Assembly (NCBI GenBank): GCA_020052415.1
Contig: JAGVPB010000092.1
Location: 1-50,880, forward strand
DNA from: Bacteroidales bacterium
GTDB lineage: Bacteria > Bacteroidota > Bacteroidia > Bacteroidales > JAADJA01
Length of the DNA: 50,880 bases
Direction of reading: 5' to 3'
Shown here: one piece after another, positions 35,462 through 49,288 of the stretch
How the letters are laid out: each line of letters opens with the position of its first letter
Numbering within the stretch: the stretch's first letter is position 1
The notes under the pieces: model-generated
Told to the model about the DNA's origin: nothing
The model's database searches: none
Seen by the model: the letters and a program-made list of their open reading frames with translations, nothing else
Position numbers and translations under genes: made by a program

Positions 35462-38400
35462 ATGGCAAAATTTTTACTGATTTTTATAACTTTCTTTTCT
35501 ATTTCAGTTGCTTATTCCGGTAGTTGGCGGCCCGGTGAGCGTCAGGTAAAAATTCATATTGAAAATCATGATCAGGTTCTAACCCTGAATCAATTAAATA
35601 TAAATTATGAGCCTTGTGCAACAGATACAGTAAGGGCTTATCTTATACAAAAAGAATTCGACCGGTTAATTAACCATGGTTTTCAGATTGAAACAGAAAT
35701 AGAAGACCTGAATAAATACAATCTTAATTTCTGGCAATCCAAGGATGCTTATCATTCCTACCAGGAGATCATTGATCTGGCTGATAGCCTTGAAACCTTC
35801 TTCCCGTCTATATGCAAGCGTTTTTATTATGGTATGGATGCTTCAAACCAGTATGTTCTGTCCGCCATTAAGATCAGCGATAATGTCATCACTGATGAAC
35901 CTGAGCCGGAAGTTTTTTTTGACGGTGGTATTCATGGTGATGAGATCGGAGGTTCCGAAAATATCATCCGGTTTGCCCGCGACCTTTGCCTGGATTATAA
36001 TGAAGATCCCGATATCACCTACCTGGTCAATAATCGTGAAATTTGGCTCTATCTCATGGTGAATCCTTATGGAAGAGATGCGAGCCCGATAACCCGGTAT
36101 AATGCCAACGGTGTTGATTTGAACCGTGACTGCGGTTATATGTGGGACGGTGATGGAAGCACTTATGGCGCTTTTCAGGAGGTTGAATCAAAGGCGCTCA
36201 GAACCTGCAATCTGGAAAACCAGTTTGTAATTTACACATCTTATCACAGCGGGACAGAATTCGTATCCTACCCCTGGAGTTACCGCCCCAATGCCTCCAA
36301 TGATAATGCCCACATCAATCAGCTTGCGAGTGTTTATGTAAATGAATCTGGTTACGCTAATCTTCCTTATAGCCAGGGTTACAGCGGTATGTACCCGATC
36401 AATGGAAGCACCAAAGATGCGTATTACGGGATCACAGGATCTGTATCATGGAGTATTGAAATTTCGTATAATAAACAACCACCCGCCAGTCAGATCATGA
36501 CTTATTACAATTATAATAAGCCGGCTATGATCGCCCTGATTGAATATTCAGGTTACGGATTATCAGGCACTGTGACCGACTCAAATACAGGTGATCCTGT
36601 TGCTGCCGTTGTATTTGTAAATAATTATTATCCATGTTATACCGATCCGGTTGCAGGTGATTATCACAAATATGTGCTTCCCGGAACCTATTCCATCACT
36701 TTTATTGCAAATGGATATGAAGCACAGACCGTCCCTAATGTCACCGTTACTGCAAATAATTCAACCGTCACCGATATAGCATTAGTACCTGAAGAAGGTC
36801 AGTATGTTTACAAGTTGGTAGCGGTACGAATTCCGGGGAATAATTTTTCAGATGAAGGATTTACACCTGCAACTATTGGTCCGCCCGACGAAATCAATTA
36901 CTCAATCGGGAAAAGCGGCTGGTGTGTACTTGATATGCAAAATCCGGTTTTTGATGGTCCCGGATCTGACTTAATCGTTTATGAAGGAGATGCCACACCC
37001 GAAGGATTTACATGCTACGCGGGATCTACAATAGATGGTCCCTGGATCAGCCTTGGAACCGGATCCGGTACAACACAGTTCGATATAGCAACGAGCGGAT
37101 TACCTGAAGCCCAATATATAAAAATACTCGATGATGGAGATGGTACGGCCGGTTCAGCCAATGCCGGATTTGATCTCGATGCTGTTAAAGCGCTCGAGCC
37201 GGTTTCTGGAATTTACCTTGCACTATATGATTTTGAGATTGATGACAGCAACGGCAACAACAACGGCCAGATAGATCCGGGCGAGACCATTGATATCATA
37301 GTTACATTAAAAAATAATGGCGACATAACAGCTACCAATGTTGTTGGTGAAATCAGTTCAACTTCCCCCTTCATAACTTTGGTAAATGCAAGCGCAACAT
37401 TTGGTGATCTCGGACAAAATGAAACTGGCGAAGGTACCTTCACCTTAACAGCAAATGCGGGCACACCTCCGGGTGAGGCTGTGGAAATAAACCTTGAAGT
37501 AAGCGCCAATAGCGGAACATATACCAATGCATTCACAATGAATTTTGTAATCGGGCTTATTGTTGAGGATTGGGAAACAGGTGATTTCAGCCAGTATGAA
37601 TGGGAATCAGGAGGAAACAGCAACTGGACCATTACTGCCACCAATCCCTATGAAGGAACTTATTGCGCACAATCCGGTAATATTAATGATGATCAAACTT
37701 CTTTCCTTAGCATATCCTATGATGTTCTTGCCGCTGGTGAAATCTCTTTTTATAAAAAGGTCTCGTCCGAAGGCAATTATGATTACCTGTCTTTTTATAT
37801 TGATGATGTTTTGCAGGAACAATGGTCAGGAGAAATTGGCTGGGGTTTGGCGCAATACAATCTAACTTCGGGCCAGCATACCTTTAAATGGGAATTTGCC
37901 AAGGATTATTCGGTTTCAAGCGGATCTGATTGCGGATGGATTGATTATGTCGTACTTCCTTCAGGAGCTTCGCAATCTCTAACTGCACTGTTCACAGGCG
38001 ATCCAACCGATTTGTGCGAAGGGGAAACAGTTAATTTTACCGATTATTCAATTGGAAATATTGTTTCATGGAGCTGGAGTTTTCCCGGAGGGGATCCGTC
38101 ATCTTCAGGTTTCCAGAATCCTTCAGTTGCATATTTTAACGCGGGCAGTTTTGATGTCTCCCTCACTGTTTCTGATGGAACAGATTCTCAAACATTGACT
38201 ATTGAGGATTATATAAATGTTGCTGCAATACCGGCCATTCCTGAACAACCGGAAGGTGAAGAATTTCCAATGTCATTTCCGGGAATGTTATGGGATTATT
38301 CTACTGCTATTGTCGCTGGTGCTACTTCCTATGAATGGATTGCCGAACCGGCTGATGCAATCGAAACACTGACAAACAATGGTAACACGTGTACAATTGA

Positions 38401-38776
38401 TTTTACCGATTATTTTATGGGCCTGGTCTCGCTTAAGGTAAGAGCCTTGAATGAATGCGGGGAAAGTGCATTTTCAGAAGCATTTGATCTTAATGTTTTT
38501 TGGGAAGGCATCAATGAAATTGACCATAATGGTTTGATCATTTATCCAAACCCTTCATCCGGCCACATAACTGTTAATTTTGGCCAGCCAATAAATGATC
38601 AAATTGATATTCGGGTATTGAACAATCTTGGAATAGAAATACTTAAAAAAAATAATATCAAATCCGAAAATAACTTTATCTTTGAGATTGACCTTGGGAA
38701 TTTTCAGCCAGGGATCTATTTTATGGAAATTTGCAGCGATAGAAAGAATGTAACAAATAAATTAATAATTAAGTAA
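35462..38776 (+). CDS. M14 zinc carboxypeptidase with T9SS sorting domain
   Basis: The 1104-residue exported protein has a signal peptide (1-19), an M14 carboxypeptidase domain (about 90-365) with zinc ligands His158, Glu161 (HGDE) and His262 (SYHSG) and catalytic Glu333 in WSIEISY, then a carboxypeptidase-regulatory-like domain (about 365-445). Next come a lectin-like region (450-575), a CARDB-like repeat (about 590-690), a jelly-roll domain (EDWETGDFSQYEWES, about 697-835) shared with the next gene, a PKD domain (about 845-925) and a C-terminal T9SS type A domain (about 1028-1104, IIYPNPSSGHITVNF, ending KLIIK). It is exported to the surface by type IX secretion and probably trims peptides. 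Confidence 0.94.
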   Translation: MAKFLLIFITFFSISVAYSGSWRPGERQVKIHIENHDQVLTLNQLNINYEPCATDTVRAYLIQKEFDRLINHGFQIETEIEDLNKYNLNFWQSKDAYHSYQEIIDLADSLETFFPSICKRFYYGMDASNQYVLSAIKISDNVITDEPEPEVFFDGGIHGDEIGGSENIIRFARDLCLDYNEDPDITYLVNNREIWLYLMVNPYGRDASPITRYNANGVDLNRDCGYMWDGDGSTYGAFQEVESKALRTCNLENQFVIYTSYHSGTEFVSYPWSYRPNASNDNAHINQLASVYVNESGYANLPYSQGYSGMYPINGSTKDAYYGITGSVSWSIEISYNKQPPASQIMTYYNYNKPAMIALIEYSGYGLSGTVTDSNTGDPVAAVVFVNNYYPCYTDPVAGDYHKYVLPGTYSITFIANGYEAQTVPNVTVTANNSTVTDIALVPEEGQYVYKLVAVRIPGNNFSDEGFTPATIGPPDEINYSIGKSGWCVLDMQNPVFDGPGSDLIVYEGDATPEGFTCYAGSTIDGPWISLGTGSGTTQFDIATSGLPEAQYIKILDDGDGTAGSANAGFDLDAVKALEPVSGIYLALYDFEIDDSNGNNNGQIDPGETIDIIVTLKNNGDITATNVVGEISSTSPFITLVNASATFGDLGQNETGEGTFTLTANAGTPPGEAVEINLEVSANSGTYTNAFTMNFVIGLIVEDWETGDFSQYEWESGGNSNWTITATNPYEGTYCAQSGNINDDQTSFLSISYDVLAAGEISFYKKVSSEGNYDYLSFYIDDVLQEQWSGEIGWGLAQYNLTSGQHTFKWEFAKDYSVSSGSDCGWIDYVVLPSGASQSLTALFTGDPTDLCEGETVNFTDYSIGNIVSWSWSFPGGDPSSSGFQNPSVAYFNAGSFDVSLTVSDGTDSQTLTIEDYINVAAIPAIPEQPEGEEFPMSFPGMLWDYSTAIVAGATSYEWIAEPADAIETLTNNGNTCTIDFTDYFMGLVSLKVRALNECGESAFSEAFDLNVFWEGINEIDHNGLIIYPNPSSGHITVNFGQPINDQIDIRVLNNLGIEILKKNNIKSENNFIFEIDLGNFQPGIYFMEICSDRKNVTNKLIIK

Positions 38777-38866
38777 TACATTAATTCAGTTTTTGGTGAT
38801 TGGAAATCCTGAATACTGTATCTCATGAACCGAAATGTTGAAAATAATAATCAAAAACATAAAATT

Positions 38867-41800
38867 ATGAAACTGCTCAGACAAAATTTAAGAACTTTAG
38901 TTTTACTGGTTCTTATTGCTATTACAGGAAGTATTAATGCGGATGAATTCAAATATTCCGACAGTTGGGGAAACCAGGGTTTTAATCTGAAGAACCAAAA
39001 AACGACAGGTGTTGAAGTAATTTATTCAATTCAGTCATTTGAGATTGCCAAAGAAGTTATAAACGGGAAATCAATGGATGCAATCCGGCTACCAGGGAAT
39101 TTATTGCCAAACAATGAAGGTGCTCCGGATTTACCCGGATCGGGCCGTTACATTGCTATTCCTCAGGGTGCAAGCGCCAACCTTCAGCTTGTCTCATTAA
39201 GGACAGAGAAATTTACCAATATTGATTTGGCACCGGCTTTTAGGATTCCCTGGGATACAGAAAACGGACCTTTACAATACAATGAAGATCCGGCGATTTA
39301 TTCAAAAAATGAATTTTATCCTGCCCAACCGGTAATTCTTTCTGAAGTGACCCAAATACGGGGAGTGGATGTCGTGATGCTCGGAATTACGCCCTACCAG
39401 TATAATCCTGTAACCAAAGAACTGATTGTTTATCGCGATATCGAAGTAAAGATTGATTTCGAAGGTGGCAATGGATATTTTGGTGAAGATCGTCTCAGGA
39501 GCCGCTGGTGGGACCCGATGCTGTCAGATATGCTCCTGAATTTTGAATCACTCCCCAAAGTGAATTATAGCAAGTCCTACCAGGCTACAGATGAAACAGG
39601 TTGTGATTATCTCATCATCACACCCACCGGCGCTGAATTTCTTCAATGGGCAGATACCATTAAAAAATTCAGGACTTTGCAGGGTATATGCACAGATATT
39701 GTCACCGTTGGAGATATAGGCGGTAACAATGCAACAACAATTGAAAACTACATAAATACTGCTTATAGTACCTGGGATATTGTACCCGCCGCCTGCCTGA
39801 TATTGGCGGATTACGGAACTAATCCTGCCACCAGCATCACGTCACCGATCTGGGATAGTTACTGTGTTTCGGATAATATTTATTCGGATGTGAATAACGA
39901 CGATATGCCGGATATCATTTTCGCAAGGATGACGGCTCAAAATGCTGCTCAGCTTCAGGTTATGGTAACAAAGTTTATTAGTTACGAAAAAAATCCACCC
40001 ACGGATCCTGATTTTTATGATCATCCTATAACTGCTCTCGGCTTCCAAACTGAACGCTGGTTTCAGATTTGTTCAGAAGCAGTAGCCGGTTTCTGGGAAG
40101 AGGCTCAGGGTAAATCCCCTGTAAGGATAAATGCTGTTTATGCAGGTAATCCCCAATCCGATCCGTGGTCCACTGCAACCAATACAAGCACTGTTGTTAA
40201 TGTTTTTGGCCCGAACGGATTGGGTTACATTCCTGCAACACCAGGACAGGTAAACTGTACATGGAACGGAACTGCTGCAAATGTTGTGACTGCATTAAAT
40301 AACGGAGCATTCATGCTTCAGCATCGCGACCATGGCTTCGAACAAGGATGGGGTGAACCTGCCTTTTCAAGCAGCAATATCAGCAGCCTTACAAACACAG
40401 ATCTGACATTTGTCTGGTCAATCAATTGCCTTACCGGTAAATACAATTACAGCAGTGAAGTCTTTTCTGAAAAATTCCACAGATATACCTATAGTGGTCA
40501 GAATGCAGGTGCATTAGGGCTTAATGCAGCATCTGAAGTATCTTATTCCTTTGTAAATGATGCCTATGCATGGGGTGCATTTGATAATATGTGGCCCGAA
40601 TTCCTTCCAACTTATGGTTCAACACCTGAACCGCGAGGAGTACTTCCCGCTTTTGCATGTGCAGCAGGTAAATATTTTTTACAGGCATCGTCCTGGCCTT
40701 ATAATACAAGTAATAAAGAAGTTACCTATAATCTTTTCCACCATCACGGAGATGCATTTTCGACTGTGTTTTCTGAAGTTCCTCAGGCTCTTACAGTAGT
40801 TCATAATCCGATCATCTACGCAGGTGTAACAAGTTTGGATATAACCGCCAACGCTAATGCTTTTATCGCGCTTACAGTTAATGGTGAGATCATTGGAACC
40901 GCTGAAGCTACAGGAGGACCTATCTCAATCACCATACCGCCTCAGCAACCACCGGATCAGATTTTGGTTACCATTACATTACAGAATTATTACCGCTACG
41001 ATTCCTGGATTGAGGTTATCCCGCCCGAAGGTCCGTATATTGTGCAAAATGCTGTAGAAATTAATGACGATGCAGGAAACGGAAACGGCATTATGGAAAC
41101 TGACGAATCCATTCTGGCTTCAATTACCGTAGAAAACGTCGGTATCGAGGATGCACTTAATGTTGTCGTAACCATCGCAACAGCCGATGAATATATAACT
41201 TTAACTGACAATACCGAAAACTATGGAACAGTTGCAGCCGGTTCCATTGCAGTAGTACCTGATGGTTTTGGCTGGGATGTCGCCGATGATATTCCCGACA
41301 TGCACCTGGTTATTTTTGAAATGAATGCCACTGATGGTGTGGATACTTGGACCACCTATTTCTCAGTTCAGGGACATGGCCCGCTGCTTGAAGTCGGTGC
41401 GCTGACCATTGATGACTCCCAGGGAAATGATAACGGCCGCCTTGATCCGGGTGAAACTGCCGATCTTGTTATACCGACATATAATAACGGTTCATACCAT
41501 GCCATAGGGGCAATCGGAAATTTAAGTTCATCGAGTGGATTTTTGACCCTGAACAATACAACATACGATTTTAATGTAATTGGCGCAGGACTTATGGAAG
41601 AGGCCGTATTTAACGTTACAGTCGCTCCTAATGCACCCATCGGAACCGCTGTAAGTTTAATGTATGAAGTTATTTCGGGAGGTTACGAGCTTCAGGAAAA
41701 TTTTGCCACCACTATAGGCCTGATCGTTGAGGACTGGGAAACAGGAGATATGTCTCAGTATAACTGGCAAACCGGCGGGGACGGAAACTGGGCTGTTTCA

Positions 41801-43450
41801 AATCAGAATCCCTATGAAGGAACATATTGCGTTAAATCCGGTAATATTGATGATGGAGAAGACTCGTGGATTTCTCTTGAATATGATATTTTCAGCAACG
41901 ATAGTATCTCTTTCTGGTTTAAAGTATCTTCCGAAAGTTCGTATGATTACCTGAGGTTTTACATTGATAATGTTGAACTTTCTTCATGGTCCGGCGAAGT
42001 CGGATGGGCTAGGATGGCTTATGCTGTAACAGCGGGAACCCATATTTTTAAATGGCAGTATGATAAGGATTACAGTGTATCAAGCGGTACCGATTGTGGC
42101 ATGCTGGATTTTATTATTTTACCAGCACCGCCTATGACAACTGCTTATGCAGGCATAGATGGTACAATTTGCGAAGGGGATAATTATCCCTGCGAAGGTT
42201 CAGCAACACTTTATAATGCTATTCACTGGACTACTTCGGGAACAGGAACATTCGATGATAGTCAGAGTCTGACACCTGTTTATACTCCGGGAGTCCTGGA
42301 TATAGAAAACGGATCTGTGGTATTGACTCTCACAGCTTATGGCCCTGATTACAACGTTACTGATAATATGACTTTAACAATCAACGGAACACCAACGGCT
42401 CTTGCAGGGGAGGATGATGTAGTATGCGCTGTGGGTTCCTATGAATTGATCAACGCAGTTGCTGAGAATTATGTGTCGGTAGAATGGACTACTGCAGGTG
42501 ATGGTTTTTTTGACGACAATTATATCATTAATCCTGTTTATACACCAGGCACAGGCGATTTGGAAGCCGGACTGGTTACATTGTCCTTCACAGTTAATGG
42601 AAATGATCCATGCGGTTCGGCCAGTGATGAGATACTGCTGACATTCACAGATGCTTCAACCGCCTATGCCGGAGATGATTCTGAAACATGCAGTAATGTA
42701 CCCTTCTCCTTAAATTCTGCAACTGCTGAAAATTATTCATCTTTGGAATGGACAACAGCCGGGGACGGGACTTTTAACGAAAATCTGACACTCAATCCGG
42801 TTTATACTCCCGGAACTAATGATGCCACCACAGGCAATGTTACCCTGACACTTACTGCCTTTGGCAATGCCAACTGCCCTGAAGTTACTTCGGTAATAAT
42901 ACTAACCATCAATGCGGTTGCTTCGGCATTTGCCGGTGTGGATTCCGGGATATATTCCGATGAAACCTATACTGTTTCTGATGCAACAGCTTTGAATTAC
43001 TCTTCATTACTCTGGATAACCTCCGGGGATGGTACTTTTGATGATGCTGCTATTCTGAATCCAACTTATACACCCGGATCAAATGACATTACCGCGGAAC
43101 AGGTTACTCTTACTCTCACCGCTGGAAATGAAGATTGCGGCGATGTGGCTGATAATATGGTTCTTACGGTAAATACCAGTGGCTTGAATGAAAATCAGGC
43201 AGGATTGGATTTTGCAATTTATCCTAATCCGAACAAGGGAAGTTTTGCTATAGAACTAAATAGTGTGATCAATGAAGTGATTAGTTTCAGTATCGTAAAT
43301 TCCCATGGTAAATTAGTTTACAGCGATGAAAATATTAAGATCGCCACCACTTATTCTAGAACTTTTGATCTGGATATCGAACCCGGTATCTATTTCATCA
43401 GGATCGAAAGCATGGAAATTTCTGTAACTAAAAAACTTGTTATAAATTAA
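38867..43450 (+). CDS. Gingipain-like C25 protease with repeats and T9SS sorting domain
   Basis: I chose the ATG at 38867 because it opens a signal peptide (MKLLRQNLRTLVLLVLIAI); the in-frame ATG 14 codons earlier does not. The 1527-residue protein has a C25 propeptide (about 30-210), a gingipain-like catalytic domain (about 215-620) with His489 (RDHGFEQGW) and Cys521 (SINCLTGKY), FN3/CARDB-like modules, the jelly-roll domain EDWETGDMSQYNWQT also found in the M14 gene, four ~88-residue repeats (about 1090-1435, each with WTTxGxGxF and PVYTPGxxD), and a T9SS type A domain ending KKLVIN. Gingipains are secreted cysteine proteases. A good terminator follows. Confidence 0.92.
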   Translation: MKLLRQNLRTLVLLVLIAITGSINADEFKYSDSWGNQGFNLKNQKTTGVEVIYSIQSFEIAKEVINGKSMDAIRLPGNLLPNNEGAPDLPGSGRYIAIPQGASANLQLVSLRTEKFTNIDLAPAFRIPWDTENGPLQYNEDPAIYSKNEFYPAQPVILSEVTQIRGVDVVMLGITPYQYNPVTKELIVYRDIEVKIDFEGGNGYFGEDRLRSRWWDPMLSDMLLNFESLPKVNYSKSYQATDETGCDYLIITPTGAEFLQWADTIKKFRTLQGICTDIVTVGDIGGNNATTIENYINTAYSTWDIVPAACLILADYGTNPATSITSPIWDSYCVSDNIYSDVNNDDMPDIIFARMTAQNAAQLQVMVTKFISYEKNPPTDPDFYDHPITALGFQTERWFQICSEAVAGFWEEAQGKSPVRINAVYAGNPQSDPWSTATNTSTVVNVFGPNGLGYIPATPGQVNCTWNGTAANVVTALNNGAFMLQHRDHGFEQGWGEPAFSSSNISSLTNTDLTFVWSINCLTGKYNYSSEVFSEKFHRYTYSGQNAGALGLNAASEVSYSFVNDAYAWGAFDNMWPEFLPTYGSTPEPRGVLPAFACAAGKYFLQASSWPYNTSNKEVTYNLFHHHGDAFSTVFSEVPQALTVVHNPIIYAGVTSLDITANANAFIALTVNGEIIGTAEATGGPISITIPPQQPPDQILVTITLQNYYRYDSWIEVIPPEGPYIVQNAVEINDDAGNGNGIMETDESILASITVENVGIEDALNVVVTIATADEYITLTDNTENYGTVAAGSIAVVPDGFGWDVADDIPDMHLVIFEMNATDGVDTWTTYFSVQGHGPLLEVGALTIDDSQGNDNGRLDPGETADLVIPTYNNGSYHAIGAIGNLSSSSGFLTLNNTTYDFNVIGAGLMEEAVFNVTVAPNAPIGTAVSLMYEVISGGYELQENFATTIGLIVEDWETGDMSQYNWQTGGDGNWAVSNQNPYEGTYCVKSGNIDDGEDSWISLEYDIFSNDSISFWFKVSSESSYDYLRFYIDNVELSSWSGEVGWARMAYAVTAGTHIFKWQYDKDYSVSSGTDCGMLDFIILPAPPMTTAYAGIDGTICEGDNYPCEGSATLYNAIHWTTSGTGTFDDSQSLTPVYTPGVLDIENGSVVLTLTAYGPDYNVTDNMTLTINGTPTALAGEDDVVCAVGSYELINAVAENYVSVEWTTAGDGFFDDNYIINPVYTPGTGDLEAGLVTLSFTVNGNDPCGSASDEILLTFTDASTAYAGDDSETCSNVPFSLNSATAENYSSLEWTTAGDGTFNENLTLNPVYTPGTNDATTGNVTLTLTAFGNANCPEVTSVIILTINAVASAFAGVDSGIYSDETYTVSDATALNYSSLLWITSGDGTFDDAAILNPTYTPGSNDITAEQVTLTLTAGNEDCGDVADNMVLTVNTSGLNENQAGLDFAIYPNPNKGSFAIELNSVINEVISFSIVNSHGKLVYSDENIKIATTYSRTFDLDIEPGIYFIRIESMEISVTKKLVIN

Positions 43451-43506
43451 AGGCTATTGAAAGATTTTTAACAGAATTCAAAAGAGTATGACTTACTCGT
43501 TTAAAA

Positions 43507-43537
43507 AAACCCTGTATAAATTTCACGGGGTTTATTT
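43507..43537 (+). terminator. Terminator of the C25 protease gene
   Basis: AAACCC-TG (43507-43514) pairs with CA and GGGTTT (43524-43533) with a small bulge and loop, followed by a T-rich stretch. Confidence 0.7.
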
Positions 43538-43571
43538 ATAAAAATAAATTACCGTCCGATTATTTTATTAT

Positions 43572-43579
43572 TATATTTG
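43572..43579 (+). promoter_or_regulatory. -7 element of the Omp28-like gene
   Basis: TATATTTG matches TAnnTTTG and lies 41 bases before the ATG at 43621. It supports transcription and translation starting upstream of the TGA codon. Confidence 0.55.
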
Positions 43580-43620
43580 CATACTGATCGAATAAAGTAT
43601 AATCTTAATAATCAACAATT

Positions 43621-45264
43621 ATGAAACACATTTTACTTTCTTTCCTCACTGTAATAATTGCAGGCGCAATTATTGCCCAGCAAGTTCCCCGTGACAAGGT
43701 TGTCGTTGAAGAGGCAACCGGCACGTGGTGAAGTTTCTGTCCAAGCGCAGCACAAGGAGTTGCAGCTTTGGTAGCCAATGGAGATCCTGTGGCTCCGATA
43801 GCCAATCACAATGGGGATCCTTATGCAAATACGTATTCCAATGCCCGTAATTCTTATTATGGAATTACCGGATATCCTACCGTTAAATTCGACGGTATTT
43901 TACAGCAGGTAGGCGCCAGCGGCAATATGTATCCGACGTACAAAGCCAAGGTAAATCAGCGAATGGCCGTCCTTTCTGATTTTACAATTACCATGCTTGG
44001 TTATAACAACGGTTTAAATTATACGGTACTTGTCACCGTTGAAAATGTTGAACCCTATTCAGGAACCAATCTGGTTATGCAGTTTACCGTAACAGAATCC
44101 CACATTCCTGAAAACTGGGGCGGACTCACCGAAGTGAACCATGTAAACCGGTTGATGGTACCGAACCAGAATGGAACACCCCTTGATTTTTCCAGCCAGA
44201 CAACCCAATCAATCCAATTGAACTTCAATATCAATGCAGGCTGGGATGTTGACAATATGGAATTTGTTGCTTTTGTGCAGAACAATACCGGTAAAGAAGT
44301 TTTACAGGGAATGGTAGTTGCCGTCAATGACTTACTGCCGATGGTTTACAACAACGCCGGATGCACGGCTATGCACATGGTTCCTCTTACGAATTGCTCC
44401 GGGGAAGTTGCCCCGCAAATAAATGTATGTAATGAAGGCGCTGAAAATCTGACTACCGTTGATATTAATTATTCGGTAAACAATGAACCGGTAAGTACCT
44501 TTCCGTGGAGTGGCAATTTATCCTATGGAGAAAGCGTGCTTGTTGATCTGCCTGCGATTTCGTTCAATCTGCTTGATGAAAATGATCTGCTTATATACAC
44601 ATCTAATCCAAATGGCAATCCCGACGAGGATACGTCCAACGACACACTTGTTTCGACATTTGTTTCAGCATTGGAAGTAGTTCCGAGTATTTATTCTTTT
44701 ATAAAACTCGATGATAATCCTGAAGAAACCACATGGGAATGCAGGAATTCTGCAGGCGTTGTGTTGTATTCAGGCGGGCCTTATACTGTTGCACAGGAAT
44801 TTGTTAAGGATACGTTTTACCTTTCGGATGATGATTGTTACACATTTACCATTTATGATTCCGGTGGCGATGGCCTCGTTGGAGGGACGTCGGGCTATAC
44901 TCTACGGCAAAATGATTTCAGCATGATTTACCAGAATAATGATTTTGAAAATACAGAAGAACTGGTACAATTCGAAATAGACCAGGTTTCAATATCAGAA
45001 ACGAATCAACCTGCCGATCTTACAGTGTATCCCAATCCATTTGCTGATCAGCTTTGGGTGACATTCAAAAACACATCGGCTGAAACCATTGAATTAACAA
45101 TTTATAATTCAACAGGTAAAACCGTTTATTATTCAGATTACGGGAAAATGGATGCAAGATATCACAGTTTGATGATAGATGCTCAGACTTTTGCTCCGGG
45201 GATTTATCTTCTTAATCTGAAAGCCGGAGATAAAATTTTTACAAAGAAGATTTCTTCGTACTAA
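43621..45264 (+). CDS. Omp28-like thioredoxin-fold protein with UxxC (probable selenoprotein) and T9SS domain
   Basis: Reading from ATG 43621 gives a signal peptide (1-20), then KVVVEEATGTW and a TGA at codon 37 (43729-43731), then Ser-Phe-Cys40-Pro. Homologues of the Omp28-related family have a Cys in that place (TGTWCxxCP), so reading TGA as selenocysteine yields a UxxC redox motif. The downstream frame is intact for 510 codons: rest of the thioredoxin-like domain (to about 240, with NHNGDPYANTYSNARNSYYG), CARDB-like region (about 260-360), a small beta domain (FVKDTFYL, CYTFTIYDSGGDG) and a T9SS type A domain (about 470-547). Without readthrough there is no signal peptide. The alternatives are a point nonsense mutation or a sequencing error. 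A SECIS-like hairpin follows the TGA. Confidence 0.7.
43741..43771 (+). promoter_or_regulatory. Putative bacterial SECIS hairpin
   Basis: CCAAGCGCA (43741-43749) pairs with TGCAGCTTTGG (43761-43771) as nine base pairs with bulged A64 and T67. The 11-base apical loop starts with G (43750), 18 bases after the TGA. Bacterial SECIS elements typically have a G at the start of the apical loop about 16-37 bases from the UGA. The pairing was done by eye. Confidence 0.6.
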
Positions 45265-45285
45265 TTAAGATTTGAACTCATATAC

Positions 45286-45317
45286 AAAGCGGCAACCTTA
45301 TGGCTGTCGCTTTTTTT
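45286..45317 (+). terminator. Terminator of the Omp28-like gene
   Basis: AAAGCGGCAACC (45286-45297) pairs with GGCTGTCGCTTT (45302-45313) with one G-T pair and one mismatch, a 4-base loop and a T run. Confidence 0.85.
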
Positions 45318-45476
45318 ATTGTCCGTGCGTAAAATTTGCAAATGTTATGAAATATTAATTAATATTTTTGATATTTGCACTGTTGGAAACTCATGATACA
45401 AAGTACACCCTCCATGAGAAGATTTCAGGTGTGATATTCGGGATTGACTTCCAGCGATAAATCTAAATCATTTTTT

Positions 45477-46754
45477 ATGGAAAGATTTACGGGATTAATT
45501 GGCCTGGTGATGATCTTCGGGCTTGCCTTCTTAATGTCGAACAACAGAAAAGCGATCAATTATCGCCTGATCATTACCGGACTTCTTCTACAGATTGGGC
45601 TTGCCGTTTTTATTCTGAAGGTTCCACTCGGACAGGAAATATTCTACTGGATTGGCAAAGCCATAAACAAGATCCTTGATTTTTCGAATGAAGGAGCTTT
45701 GTTTGTATTTGGCGACCTGACCAAAGTAACACAAATCCTTCCTGATGAATTTGTAAAGAGGGGCATGTTTATTTTCATCCTTCTTCCCACTATTATATTT
45801 GTTTGTGTTCTGGTCGCAATTGCCTACCATATCGGTCTGATGCAGCGTATTGTTGCTGTTATTGCGCGATTTGTTCATTGGGCTATGCGCGTCAGCGGAA
45901 GCGAGGCTCTGTCGAATGTGGCGAGCGCATTTGTCGGACAGGTCGAGGCTCAGATCATGATCCGCCCTTATCTAAGCGGGATGACGCGCTCCGAACTCCT
46001 GGCATCTATGGCCGGAAGTATGGCCTGTATTGCCGGTGGCGTTATGGCAATCTATATTTCTATGGGCGTGCCTGCATCCTACCTGCTGGCGGCCAGCCTA
46101 ATGGCGGCACCCGGAGCGCTTGTCATTGCAAAAATTGTTTTTCCCGAAACCGAGGAATCCGAAACCAAGGGAAAAGTAAAGCTTGAAATTAAAAAAGAAC
46201 ATTCCAATATTATGGATGCCATAAGCCATGGGGCAAGTGATGGAATGAAGGTGTCCATCAACGTAATTGCAATGCTTATCGGTGTAATCGCTTTGATCGC
46301 CCTGATAGATGCTTTGCTCGGATATTTCGGTCATTTTCTTGCATGGACTGGTCTTTCGCTTGACCTGATTGGTATTGATTTAACCCACATGAGGCTTAAA
46401 GATATTTTTGGTGCAATGTTCTCAGTATTTGCCTGGGGTATGGGAGTTCCTTCCGGTGATATTCAAACTGTTGGCGCATTAATGGGAACCAAAATGGTGA
46501 TTAACGAATTTGTGGCTTATACCGATCTGACACCGATGATAGCTTCCGGCGCACTCTCAGCAAAAGCAGCAATAATTGCCAGTTTTGCACTTTGCGGTTT
46601 TGCCAATTTCAGTTCCGTAGCCATCCAGCTTGGCGGTATTGGCGCTCTTGCTCCAAACCGAAAAGCCGACCTCGCTAAACTTGGCCTGAAGGCGATGGTC
46701 TGCGGAACACTCGCCTCCTACATTTCTGCTACACTTGCCGGTATGCTTATGTAA
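45477..46754 (+). CDS. Concentrative nucleoside transporter (CNT/NupC family)
   Basis: The ATG at 45477 gives 425 residues; an in-frame TTG 11 codons upstream is less likely. The protein has about ten membrane segments and the CNT motifs ASAFVGQVEAQIMIRPYL and AGGVMAIYISMGVPASYLLAASLMAAPG, then FCGFANFSSVAIQLGGIG-like sequence (ALCGFANFSSVAIQ). CNT proteins import nucleosides with Na+ or H+. The gene sits alone between two T9SS-cargo genes; it has its own promoter region and is followed by a small hairpin. Which nucleosides are carried cannot be read from the sequence. Confidence 0.92.
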   Translation: MERFTGLIGLVMIFGLAFLMSNNRKAINYRLIITGLLLQIGLAVFILKVPLGQEIFYWIGKAINKILDFSNEGALFVFGDLTKVTQILPDEFVKRGMFIFILLPTIIFVCVLVAIAYHIGLMQRIVAVIARFVHWAMRVSGSEALSNVASAFVGQVEAQIMIRPYLSGMTRSELLASMAGSMACIAGGVMAIYISMGVPASYLLAASLMAAPGALVIAKIVFPETEESETKGKVKLEIKKEHSNIMDAISHGASDGMKVSINVIAMLIGVIALIALIDALLGYFGHFLAWTGLSLDLIGIDLTHMRLKDIFGAMFSVFAWGMGVPSGDIQTVGALMGTKMVINEFVAYTDLTPMIASGALSAKAAIIASFALCGFANFSSVAIQLGGIGALAPNRKADLAKLGLKAMVCGTLASYISATLAGMLM

Positions 46755-46807
46755 TTTTAGGATTCGGTTTTGTAACGAACATTTGATTACCGGATTTACT
46801 TAAGACT

Positions 46808-46825
46808 AACCTAAAATAGGTTTTT
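46808..46825 (+). terminator. Weak terminator after the nucleoside transporter
   Basis: AACCTA (46808-46813) and TAGGTT (46817-46822) form a 6-bp stem with a 3-base loop and T's after it. Confidence 0.45.
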
Positions 46826-46963
46826 GACTGTTTTGTAACACTGCGGTTGGATAATTCGTAATACCATCAATTTAGACAGATTCAAACAACTATTTGAATT
46901 GATCATTTGTCTTGATGTTGCAAATTCAGCCTTATAATGATTTCTTAATTTTTATACTTTAAT

Positions 46964-49288
46964 ATGAAAAAATTCCAACTGTTAATTTTAGCTTTAGTTT
47001 CTGTATTTCTGGTCAACGCCGGTGTCGTTGAAAAAACTTATTATTTTGAGAACCCAGCGGTGATCTCCGCCGGTGAATTTCAATTGATTAATTTTGAAAA
47101 CACCCAATTATTTGGCAGGGTGGGCGAACCCGCATTGCCTTATCATTCGGTTCAGCTTTTGCTTCCTCCCGGAGAGACGGCTGTTTCGATCGAATTTATT
47201 GGTGGTGAAGAAATTCAGCTTCCCGGTGAATATAATATTTACCCTCAGCAGGCTTCCCGGCCATTATCGCTTCCGGGAAACGGTTCATTCGCATTAAATG
47301 AGCTGGTTTACAAATCCAATGGTAATTACCCGGCAACTCCAACAGGTGAGCTTATCACAAGCCATCTGAACGGCTATGCTTTTGCCTTGTCAACATTTAC
47401 TCCGGTAAAATACAATCCGGTGACAGGCATTGTTTCGGTTTACAGGAAAGTGACGATAAAAGTCACCACTGAGCCTTCGGATCAATCAGCCATTGCATTG
47501 AATAATCTTAAACAAAGTTCAGGTATTTTGGATAAAGTGAATGCTTATGCTCAGAACCCGGAAATGATTTATCAATATCCTGCGGCTCCAAAGACCAATG
47601 ACGATTATCAGTTACTGATCATCACACCATCACAGTTTGCAGGTAATTTTGATGAATTGATTGCTGTTTATCTTGAAAGAGGCATAAAAACACAGGTCGT
47701 TTCAAGAGAAACTATTAATACCGGCGGAACCGGACAGGACCTCCAGGACAAGATCAGGAATTATATCATACAGGAATACCAGGATCACAGTGTAGAATAT
47801 GTGTTATTGGGAGGCGATGTTGAGCATGTTCCATACAGGGGTTTTTATTGTTATGCAGTGTCGGGTAGCGGATATGAAGATAATAATATCCCGGCCGATC
47901 TTTATTACTCGGCCCTGGATGGCAACTGGAACACCGACGGCGATAGCTATTGGGGTGAACCGGGCGAGGATGACCTGTTGCCCGAAGTTGCTGTCGGACG
48001 TTTTTCGTTCAGCAATATAACCGAACTGAACGCCATGCTTCATAAAACCATTTTCTACCAAAACAGTCCGGTATTGGGCGAGTTTAACAATGCCCTCTTT
48101 GCAGGCGAATGGTTGTACGGAGATCCCGAAACCTGGGGCTCCGACTACCTCGAACTGTTGATCGGCCATCGCACAGATAATGGCTACGAAACTTATGGAA
48201 TACCCGAAACCTATAACTTCATGAAACTCTATGAAGAAAACCAATCCTGGGGAGCCAATGATTTAATTACAGCCATCAATACCGGGAAGCAATATGTTCA
48301 TCATGTAGGACATGCCAACTCCAACTATGTAGCCTATATGAGCAATTCCGATATCACCAATGGAAATTATTATGGAGCTAACGGTGTTGACCACAATTAT
48401 ACGATTTTTCATTCTCATGGCTGTATTTGCGGAGCTTTCGACGACAGCGACTGCATCATGGAAAAAATGGCTTCTATTGACAATTTCGCTGTTGCAGTGG
48501 TGGGAAATTCAAGGTATGGCTGGTTCAATGAGGGACAGACCGAAGGCCCTGCGGCTCATTTACACCGTGAAATGGTGGATGCCATGTATCACGAAAAAAT
48601 AAATCACATCGGCGCAGCTTTCGCTGAAGCCAAGATTCAAACTGCTCCCTGGGTTACAGCTCCGGGACAATGGGAAGAGGGCGCATTGCGCTGGAATTTC
48701 TACGATATCAATATCCTTGGCGACCCGACACTGTCTTTATGGACGGCTGAGCCTGTTTCAATTGAAACTGCTTATGAAAGCGAAATCCTGATCACCGCTG
48801 CGTCTGCTTCAGTGACGGTTACGAGTGGCGGCAATCCGGTGGAGAACTTTAGCTGCACCATTCTGATGGATGGTGTATTATATGGAACTGCAAAAACCGA
48901 TGCTTCCGGTGTGGCGCTGATCAATTTTGAAACAGCCTTTCCTGCTGCCGGTGAAGCCCAGTTGATTGTTTGCGGATACAATTGCTTGCCGACCTCTTAT
49001 GTTATTTCCATTGTTTTAGATACAGGTATTGATGAAACCGGTGATTCCGGATTAACTGTTTATCCCAATCCATCGAACGGCTTTATCTCTCTCGGCTTTA
49101 TCAACGATGCTCCGGAAGTTCAAATAACGGTTTTAAACCTGATGAACGAAGTGGTATTTACAAATAAGGCCGAAAGCCGGAATAACATGGCAATAAACCT
49201 CGATCTTAGCCATCTTTCCAAAGGAATTTACTTTATTAAACTGAGTTCCCGCGGGCAGGATATAACAAGGAAAATAGTTATTCAGTAA
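46964..49288 (+). CDS. Gingipain-like C25 protease with T9SS sorting domain
   Basis: The 774-residue protein has a signal peptide (1-19), a C25 propeptide (about 25-200), a catalytic domain (about 210-600) with His450 in VHHVGHANSN and Cys487 in HSHGCICGAFD as the likely dyad, a short Ig-like domain (about 600-690, ASVTVTSGGNPV) and a T9SS type A domain (about 697-774) ending KIVIQ. A second cysteine (Cys489) lies two residues from the nucleophile. It is an independent paralogue of the larger C25 protease upstream, without the repeats. It is probably exported to the surface through type IX secretion. A long inverted repeat follows the stop. Confidence 0.92.
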   Translation: MKKFQLLILALVSVFLVNAGVVEKTYYFENPAVISAGEFQLINFENTQLFGRVGEPALPYHSVQLLLPPGETAVSIEFIGGEEIQLPGEYNIYPQQASRPLSLPGNGSFALNELVYKSNGNYPATPTGELITSHLNGYAFALSTFTPVKYNPVTGIVSVYRKVTIKVTTEPSDQSAIALNNLKQSSGILDKVNAYAQNPEMIYQYPAAPKTNDDYQLLIITPSQFAGNFDELIAVYLERGIKTQVVSRETINTGGTGQDLQDKIRNYIIQEYQDHSVEYVLLGGDVEHVPYRGFYCYAVSGSGYEDNNIPADLYYSALDGNWNTDGDSYWGEPGEDDLLPEVAVGRFSFSNITELNAMLHKTIFYQNSPVLGEFNNALFAGEWLYGDPETWGSDYLELLIGHRTDNGYETYGIPETYNFMKLYEENQSWGANDLITAINTGKQYVHHVGHANSNYVAYMSNSDITNGNYYGANGVDHNYTIFHSHGCICGAFDDSDCIMEKMASIDNFAVAVVGNSRYGWFNEGQTEGPAAHLHREMVDAMYHEKINHIGAAFAEAKIQTAPWVTAPGQWEEGALRWNFYDINILGDPTLSLWTAEPVSIETAYESEILITAASASVTVTSGGNPVENFSCTILMDGVLYGTAKTDASGVALINFETAFPAAGEAQLIVCGYNCLPTSYVISIVLDTGIDETGDSGLTVYPNPSNGFISLGFINDAPEVQITVLNLMNEVVFTNKAESRNNMAINLDLSHLSKGIYFIKLSSRGQDITRKIVIQ

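Follow-up and report, generated by a model that had tools for sequence, protein, structure and literature searches.

One gene of the Bacteroidales genome analysed here very probably encodes a selenoprotein that receives its selenocysteine (Sec) through SelB and an RNA hairpin, is exported by the type IX secretion system and likely has a redox role resembling that of HBP35. That it is a genuine selenoprotein is strongly supported by comparative sequence tests, apart from the hairpin of this particular copy, which is weak. The window, i.e., the whole stretch of 50,880 nucleotides that was analysed, is an entire contig (C75) of a 4.67 Mb assembly (G000; 94 contigs, 97.4% complete, 3.67% estimated contamination). 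The gene lies at positions 43621–45264 of the forward strand, from an ATG at 43621 to a TAA ending at 45264, and its 547 codons contain one single in-frame stop, a TGA at codon 37 (43729–43731) in the context ATGTW-U-SFCPSA. A first-pass annotation had placed this TGA at the first Cys of a CxxC motif, ahead of an open frame of more than 500 codons with a type IX sorting domain at its end. Both observations hold: the TGA is the first codon of the motif U-S-F-C (UxxC, 43729–43740, preceded by TGTW), 510 codons are open 3′ of it, and the sorting domain at their end scores over its cut-off. Standard ORF calling recovers only a 498-aa piece of this gene starting with TTG (43768–45264), while on the joined frame, read through the TGA, both the Pfam Omp28 and Por_Secre_tail domains were found.

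The first 19 residues (43621–43677) were recognised by eye as a putative signal peptide, in agreement with the normal signal peptide previously annotated. Residues 76–236 (43846–44328) match Pfam Omp28 (PF11551, 53.7 bits against a cut-off of 34.9), and this domain together with the UxxC part makes up an HBP35-like unit. It is followed at about residues 238–352 (44332–44676) by a CARDB-like beta domain (model match to 3idu_B, Z 11.0, 109 aligned residues, rmsd 2.9), and residues 469–544 (45025–45252) form the sorting domain Por_Secre_tail, which is over both cut-offs (PF18962, 50.6 vs. 27 bits; TIGR04183, 44 vs. 23 bits) and whose model matches 8glk_D (Z 11.0, 75 aligned residues, rmsd 1.9). 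The signal peptide would serve for export, and the C-terminal sorting domain would then direct the protein through the type IX system onto the surface of the cell or into the medium. The gene is surrounded by a cluster of type IX-tailed peptidases (35462–49288), all encoded on the forward strand: an M14 carboxypeptidase (35462–38776), a gingipain-type C25 peptidase directly upstream of the selenoprotein gene (38825–43450) and a second C25 peptidase (46964–49288). Nor is the window gene alone in its genome, which contains at least seven genes of the exported type with an in-frame TGA, six of them with a type IX tail. In the remaining one, an Omp28 paralogue on contig C56, no type IX tail was found by Pfam, and this copy would suit a different scenario in which the window protein, although a selenoprotein, is a folding helper in the periplasm whose tail is not used for export. 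We regard this as improbable, since the tail scores above its curated threshold both in the window protein and in five of the genome's six other TGA genes, and the three neighbouring peptidases bear it as well.

The AlphaFold2 model of the window protein (mean pLDDT 93.9, pTM 0.57) matches, with its first 223 residues, best to HBP35 (5y1a; Z 24.7, 218 aligned residues, rmsd 2.3, 16% identity), the second structure match of the N-terminal part being 2axo (Z 19.3). Positions 6–23 of the family profile pair with HBP35 residues 36–53, and by these matched ranges the TGA column (18) falls on residue 48. The two proteins thus share the fold, an active site (the CxYC of HBP35 being aligned to UxxC) and a C-terminal domain for surface export, while HBP35 has Cys in place of Sec and is shorter (344 residues). 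According to the accessible parts of the literature, HBP35 of Porphyromonas gingivalis is a cell-surface protein with a reducing activity above that of Escherichia coli thioredoxin, and its thioredoxin activity is abolished when C48 and C51 are both mutated (PMC2907840; a further paper on HBP35 is PMC3120885). Omp28 of the same species (2r2c, by its entry title a domain of an outer membrane lipoprotein) has the Omp28 domain in common with the window protein (Z 10.3, 115 residues).

From the fold match to HBP35 and the activity of the latter we infer that the window protein is a Sec-based extracellular thiol-disulfide oxidoreductase. Read as selenocysteine, UGA 37 would supply the U of a thioredoxin-type UxxC site, whose selenolate would attack disulfides faster than a thiolate; outside the cell the protein would most likely act as a reductase or isomerase like HBP35. 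It is a reasonable guess that its task is the reduction of disulfides in extracellular proteins or that it keeps the flanking type IX-tailed peptidases active, the idea of a helper of extracellular proteolysis being suggested by the position of the gene among these peptidases. C25 peptidases showed no association with the Sec form, as they were present in 4 of 18 regions around Sec copies and in 4 of 20 around Cys copies. The regions compared spanned 5.9 to 20.9 kb, being cut where contigs ended, and the Cys loci were hand-picked and mostly top-listed. The peptidase-helper idea remains a guess. The main job might alternatively be the binding of a ligand such as heme, with the active site being secondary: HBP35 binds hemin, the site reportedly lies in its residues 135–344 (PMC2907840), and the fold match covers part of this region. 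We consider this quite improbable, because both columns of the UxxC/CxxC motif (U written as C) are invariant in 54 aligned rows and because a residue as costly as Sec would scarcely be retained if binding were the only function.

Six genes with an Omp28 domain are present in G000, and four of them, located on C75 (the window gene), C56, C39 and C41, carry a TGA, always at the same aligned codon. The fifth adjoins the TGA copy on C41 and is a Cys form (CGWC), and C31 carries the sixth, which lacks a TGA. The expectation that Omp28-related proteins have Cys at the TGA position was confirmed in 79 of the 80 named relatives that scored best among 401 confirmed ones, the remaining one, from the same genus as the window, having TGA; of the two scan patterns used for this count, one contained W-C, which TGA copies would escape. 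When 393 genomes of the order were searched, 125 matched, and TGA copies occur in at least 12 genomes among the matches listed. The 15 copies examined from 11 other genomes all have TGA at the same UxxC codon, so that a stop is found at this codon in 19 copies from 12 genomes and is TGA every time. Recurrence in four own and 15 foreign copies argues that the TGA is not there by chance and makes a sequencing error very unlikely. Among 395 genomes drawn more broadly from the phylum, 74 matched, with a TGA inside the match only in G000.

The TGA copies are strongly associated with the Sec machinery. SelA was searched for in the best 80 of the 125 matching genomes of the order and found in 29; it is present in 12/12 genomes with a listed Omp28 TGA copy, compared to 17/68 without (Fisher p = 8.6e-7), where the genomes scored as lacking TGA may hold weaker copies, as the match list extends to about 4.5e-55. 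In G739, selA, selB and, 258 bases further on, the Omp28 selenoprotein gene follow each other on one strand of one contig, which makes the link independent of binning. G721, a genome of the same genus as the window (89% complete) in which selA was not found, has an Omp28 gene with TGT that stands between C25 peptidases like the window gene. In G655 and G563, which belong to this genus too, Omp28 genes likewise have C25 peptidases beside them. In a tree of 18 of the 19 Sec copies (L174 was left out) and 40 Cys copies, the Sec and Cys forms are intermixed with at least four state changes. The well-supported branches force just one change, and a repeated origin of the Sec form is therefore not demonstrated by the tree. 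A DNA pattern run on the 80 genomes matched 30 times in 18 genomes, compared to 10 matches for a reversed control; 14 of the 30 are known Omp28 copies and the origin of the other 16, some in genomes without a selA match, is untraced, and no count given here is drawn from this search.

For the insertion of Sec, SelB, bound to a hairpin just 3′ of the TGA, would deliver the Sec-tRNA. We scored the folding energy of stretches after the TGA against synonymous recodings in 19 Sec and 79 Cys copies. Between +12 and +48 the mean z was −1.76 in the Sec and −0.07 in the Cys copies (Mann-Whitney p = 2.8e-6), and between +3 and +51 it was −1.34 and −0.03 (p = 2.2e-5), these p values ignoring the kinship among the 19 mutually related Sec copies. 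From +3 to +39 both groups were alike (p 0.26), and two control regions leaned towards more structure in the Sec copies without significance (p 0.077 and 0.11). The strongest hairpins belong to six Sec copies of a single genus (three genomes), which have a hairpin of their own (z −2.9 to −4.1). Four Omp28 selenoprotein copies with hairpins far stronger than that of the window copy occur in G570 (L177, L181, L182, L183) and represent a lineage expansion.

By comparison among the 11 Sec copies that could be aligned, a candidate SECIS hairpin of 10 pairs with a loop of 7 nt was placed at 43742–43770 (forward strand) of the window. In these copies 89.1% of the cells are paired and eight cells, located at three pairs, are changed on both sides; 500 shuffles never equalled these copies in paired share, in doubly changed cells or in covariation score, while pairs with double changes and further pair types were no more numerous than usual (190 and 249 of 500 shuffles as high, respectively). 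Versions of the hairpin slid along the alignment were 18–47% paired. On the same columns the Cys copies are 72.5% paired, which indicates that much of the stem is dictated by the protein sequence. A synonymous third-base pair is kept in 10 of 11 Sec copies compared to 26 of 72 comparable Cys copies, i.e., those in which the loop is preceded by an Ala codon and followed by one for Ala or Val (p = 0.0008). The hairpin of the window copy itself is no stronger than its synonymous recodings (z −0.03) or shuffles (z −0.78 to 0.73). The bacterial SECIS consensus includes a G in the first two loop positions, and the window hairpin has none in these two. The Rfam SECIS model had no match in 43600–43950, and a scan for promoters and terminators gave nothing usable.

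That this hairpin is not distinctive, and that standard gene calling ends at the TGA, would be in line with a true stop that arose by nonsense mutation or assembly error, the gene then being a CxxC Omp28 gene that has recently become a pseudogene. We judge this very improbable, and pseudogene and assembly error were rejected on the frame that stays open for 510 codons, on the recurrence of TGA, and of no other stop, at the same codon in the 19 copies, and on the association of these copies with selA. The genome moreover possesses the genes to read the codon as Sec, a check that had been proposed along with the first-pass annotation: tRNA-Sec (58.8 bits, above the Rfam cut-off; assigned by ARAGORN as SeC with anticodon tca), selA (524 bits) and selB (306 bits), both above cut-off, are present, and yedF and selD were recognised by eye beside selA and selB. 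TRNA-Sec, selA and selB form one cluster on contig C79, in the order family 2 (see below), tRNA-Sec, selA, selB, yedF, selD. That this is another contig than that of the window gene counts against the reading, in an assembly of 94 contigs with some estimated contamination. The cluster is flanked by proteins that by eye resemble type IX cargo, which fits an origin from the same phylum as the window. Decoding of TGA as Cys, Trp or another residue, by suppression or a changed code, is extremely unlikely even with Cys at this column in the relatives, and a general code change was rejected, given the Sec genes, the way TGA copies track selA across genomes and the use of TGA as terminator in 7 of 31 long ORFs of the window (selected by hand), which argues against a general reassignment. 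With the conserved TGA, the Cys relatives and the sel genes, the selenoprotein reading proposed at the outset is the one that is strongly supported.

The first-pass annotation knew of no described selenoprotein with a type IX sorting domain, and this stands so far. It needs amending in that the gene is not an isolated case in its genome and in that an Omp28-related UxxC family is already catalogued as NF045500, the hypothetical protein GOS_C with UxxC of a 2026 inventory (PMC13188914, as far as its text was accessible). GOS_C was described from 74 sequences in marine metagenome reads from the ocean, with a suggested thiol-based redox function (PMC2398784, accessible part). As far as these sources describe it, it shares with the window protein the Omp28 relationship (by NCBIfam name), the thioredoxin-like fold, the UxxC motif and the existence of Cys relatives; the comparison was made by description and profile score. 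The kinship has to be qualified, since the window protein is far under the family cut-off (76.8 bits against a curated 200), the other TGA copies of the genome score 57–75, and none of the 393 genomes of the order reached the cut-off. Sec is likewise the first residue of UxxC in thioredoxin, DsbA-, DsbG- and Prx-like bacterial selenoproteins, for which the accessible text of the inventory mentions no type IX sorting domain (PMC13188914); the words “bacteroid,” “T9SS” and “type IX” are absent from its text. The same source, in its accessible part, includes Sec proteins of the outer membrane, namely a TonB-dependent receptor with FCYXU and an MtrB/PioB-type barrel (PMC13188914), and selenoproteins of the envelope as such are thus not unheard of.

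The window protein looks like a new relative, with a type IX tail, of a family already catalogued, and like part of an apparently larger exported selenoproteome. In the literature searched, as far as its texts were accessible, no paper joined Omp28 with a selenoprotein and none tied type IX secretion to selenoproteins, the sole co-mention of selenoprotein and T9SS being in a paper on a P. gingivalis CRISPR array. Within that literature, a type IX tail on a selenoprotein and the two further exported selenoprotein families of this genome are provisionally new. If the reading is true, selenocysteine would reach the surface or the outside of the bacterial cell by a secretion system that was not found linked with selenoproteins in the literature searched. 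It would also add at least one selenoprotein family whose Sec-bearing core is not recognised at cut-off by any Pfam or NCBIfam model, and account for genes that come out truncated or split in ordinary ORF calling. As Sec and Cys forms exist on one scaffold, some within a genus, the advantage of Sec over Cys would be directly testable.

Considering these further families, we find it somewhat more plausible than its opposite that bacteria of this order run their Sec system largely for the cell exterior, with at least three type IX-tailed families making up a surface selenoproteome for extracellular redox reactions. When genomes with a TGA copy of any family are taken together, selA is present in 21/23, compared to 8/57 others (p = 8e-11), the selA associations of the second and third families being drawn from the same 80 genomes as the Omp28 test. 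The third family is ResA/AhpC-TSA-like, combines UxxC with a type IX tail and has two TGA copies in G000 on C2 and C52 (L298:297–1640, reverse strand, and L299:290–1081, forward strand). Of the 80 genomes, 13 more have copies with a TGA, with UxxC confirmed in 12 of the 13 (G491 being the thirteenth), and there are many other matches without any stop. In G655 a copy (L191:11126–12400) lies just past ORFs that resemble yedF and selD by length and order. UxxC copies with TGA were also found in two genomes, G427 (L300) and G537 (L301), in which selA was not found, and incomplete assembly may or may not be the cause. Judged on the TGA copies alone, the RNA after the TGA leaned towards structure in both families, with a mean z of −1.49 in the third family (n = 14) and of −1.70 in family 2 (n = 12).

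Family 2 was recognised in sel neighbourhoods read with TGA open. Its copy in G000 (C79:178439–180229, equivalent to L018:10440–12278, where it is on the reverse strand) encodes 613 aa with the motif GCYCVD-U-GLTPPG (in general GC[YF]Cxx-U-GxTPPG) and a type IX tail; the tail region is the only one to reach Pfam or NCBIfam cut-offs. The search of the 393 genomes of the order gave, in 13 of them, 17 long matches that cover at least about 500 of the 597 profile positions, each with one TGA, and a partial match with one TGA in G468. The TGA lies inside the Sec motif in 12 of 13 loci scanned, L258 not fitting the motif, and a fragment in G727 has TAG instead of TGA. All 14 genomes with a family 2 TGA have selA (p = 5e-8 among the 80 genomes), and in 11 of the 14 the gene, by its coordinates, precedes selA on the same strand by at most 1.7 kb. 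The C-terminal half of family 2 is common to larger proteins at all 13 loci examined (L261–L269, L271, L273–L275), and the Sec loop is absent in three alignments of such larger relatives. Two more matches to the C-terminal half, in G563 and G655, lie by their coordinates inside ORFs of C25 peptidases.
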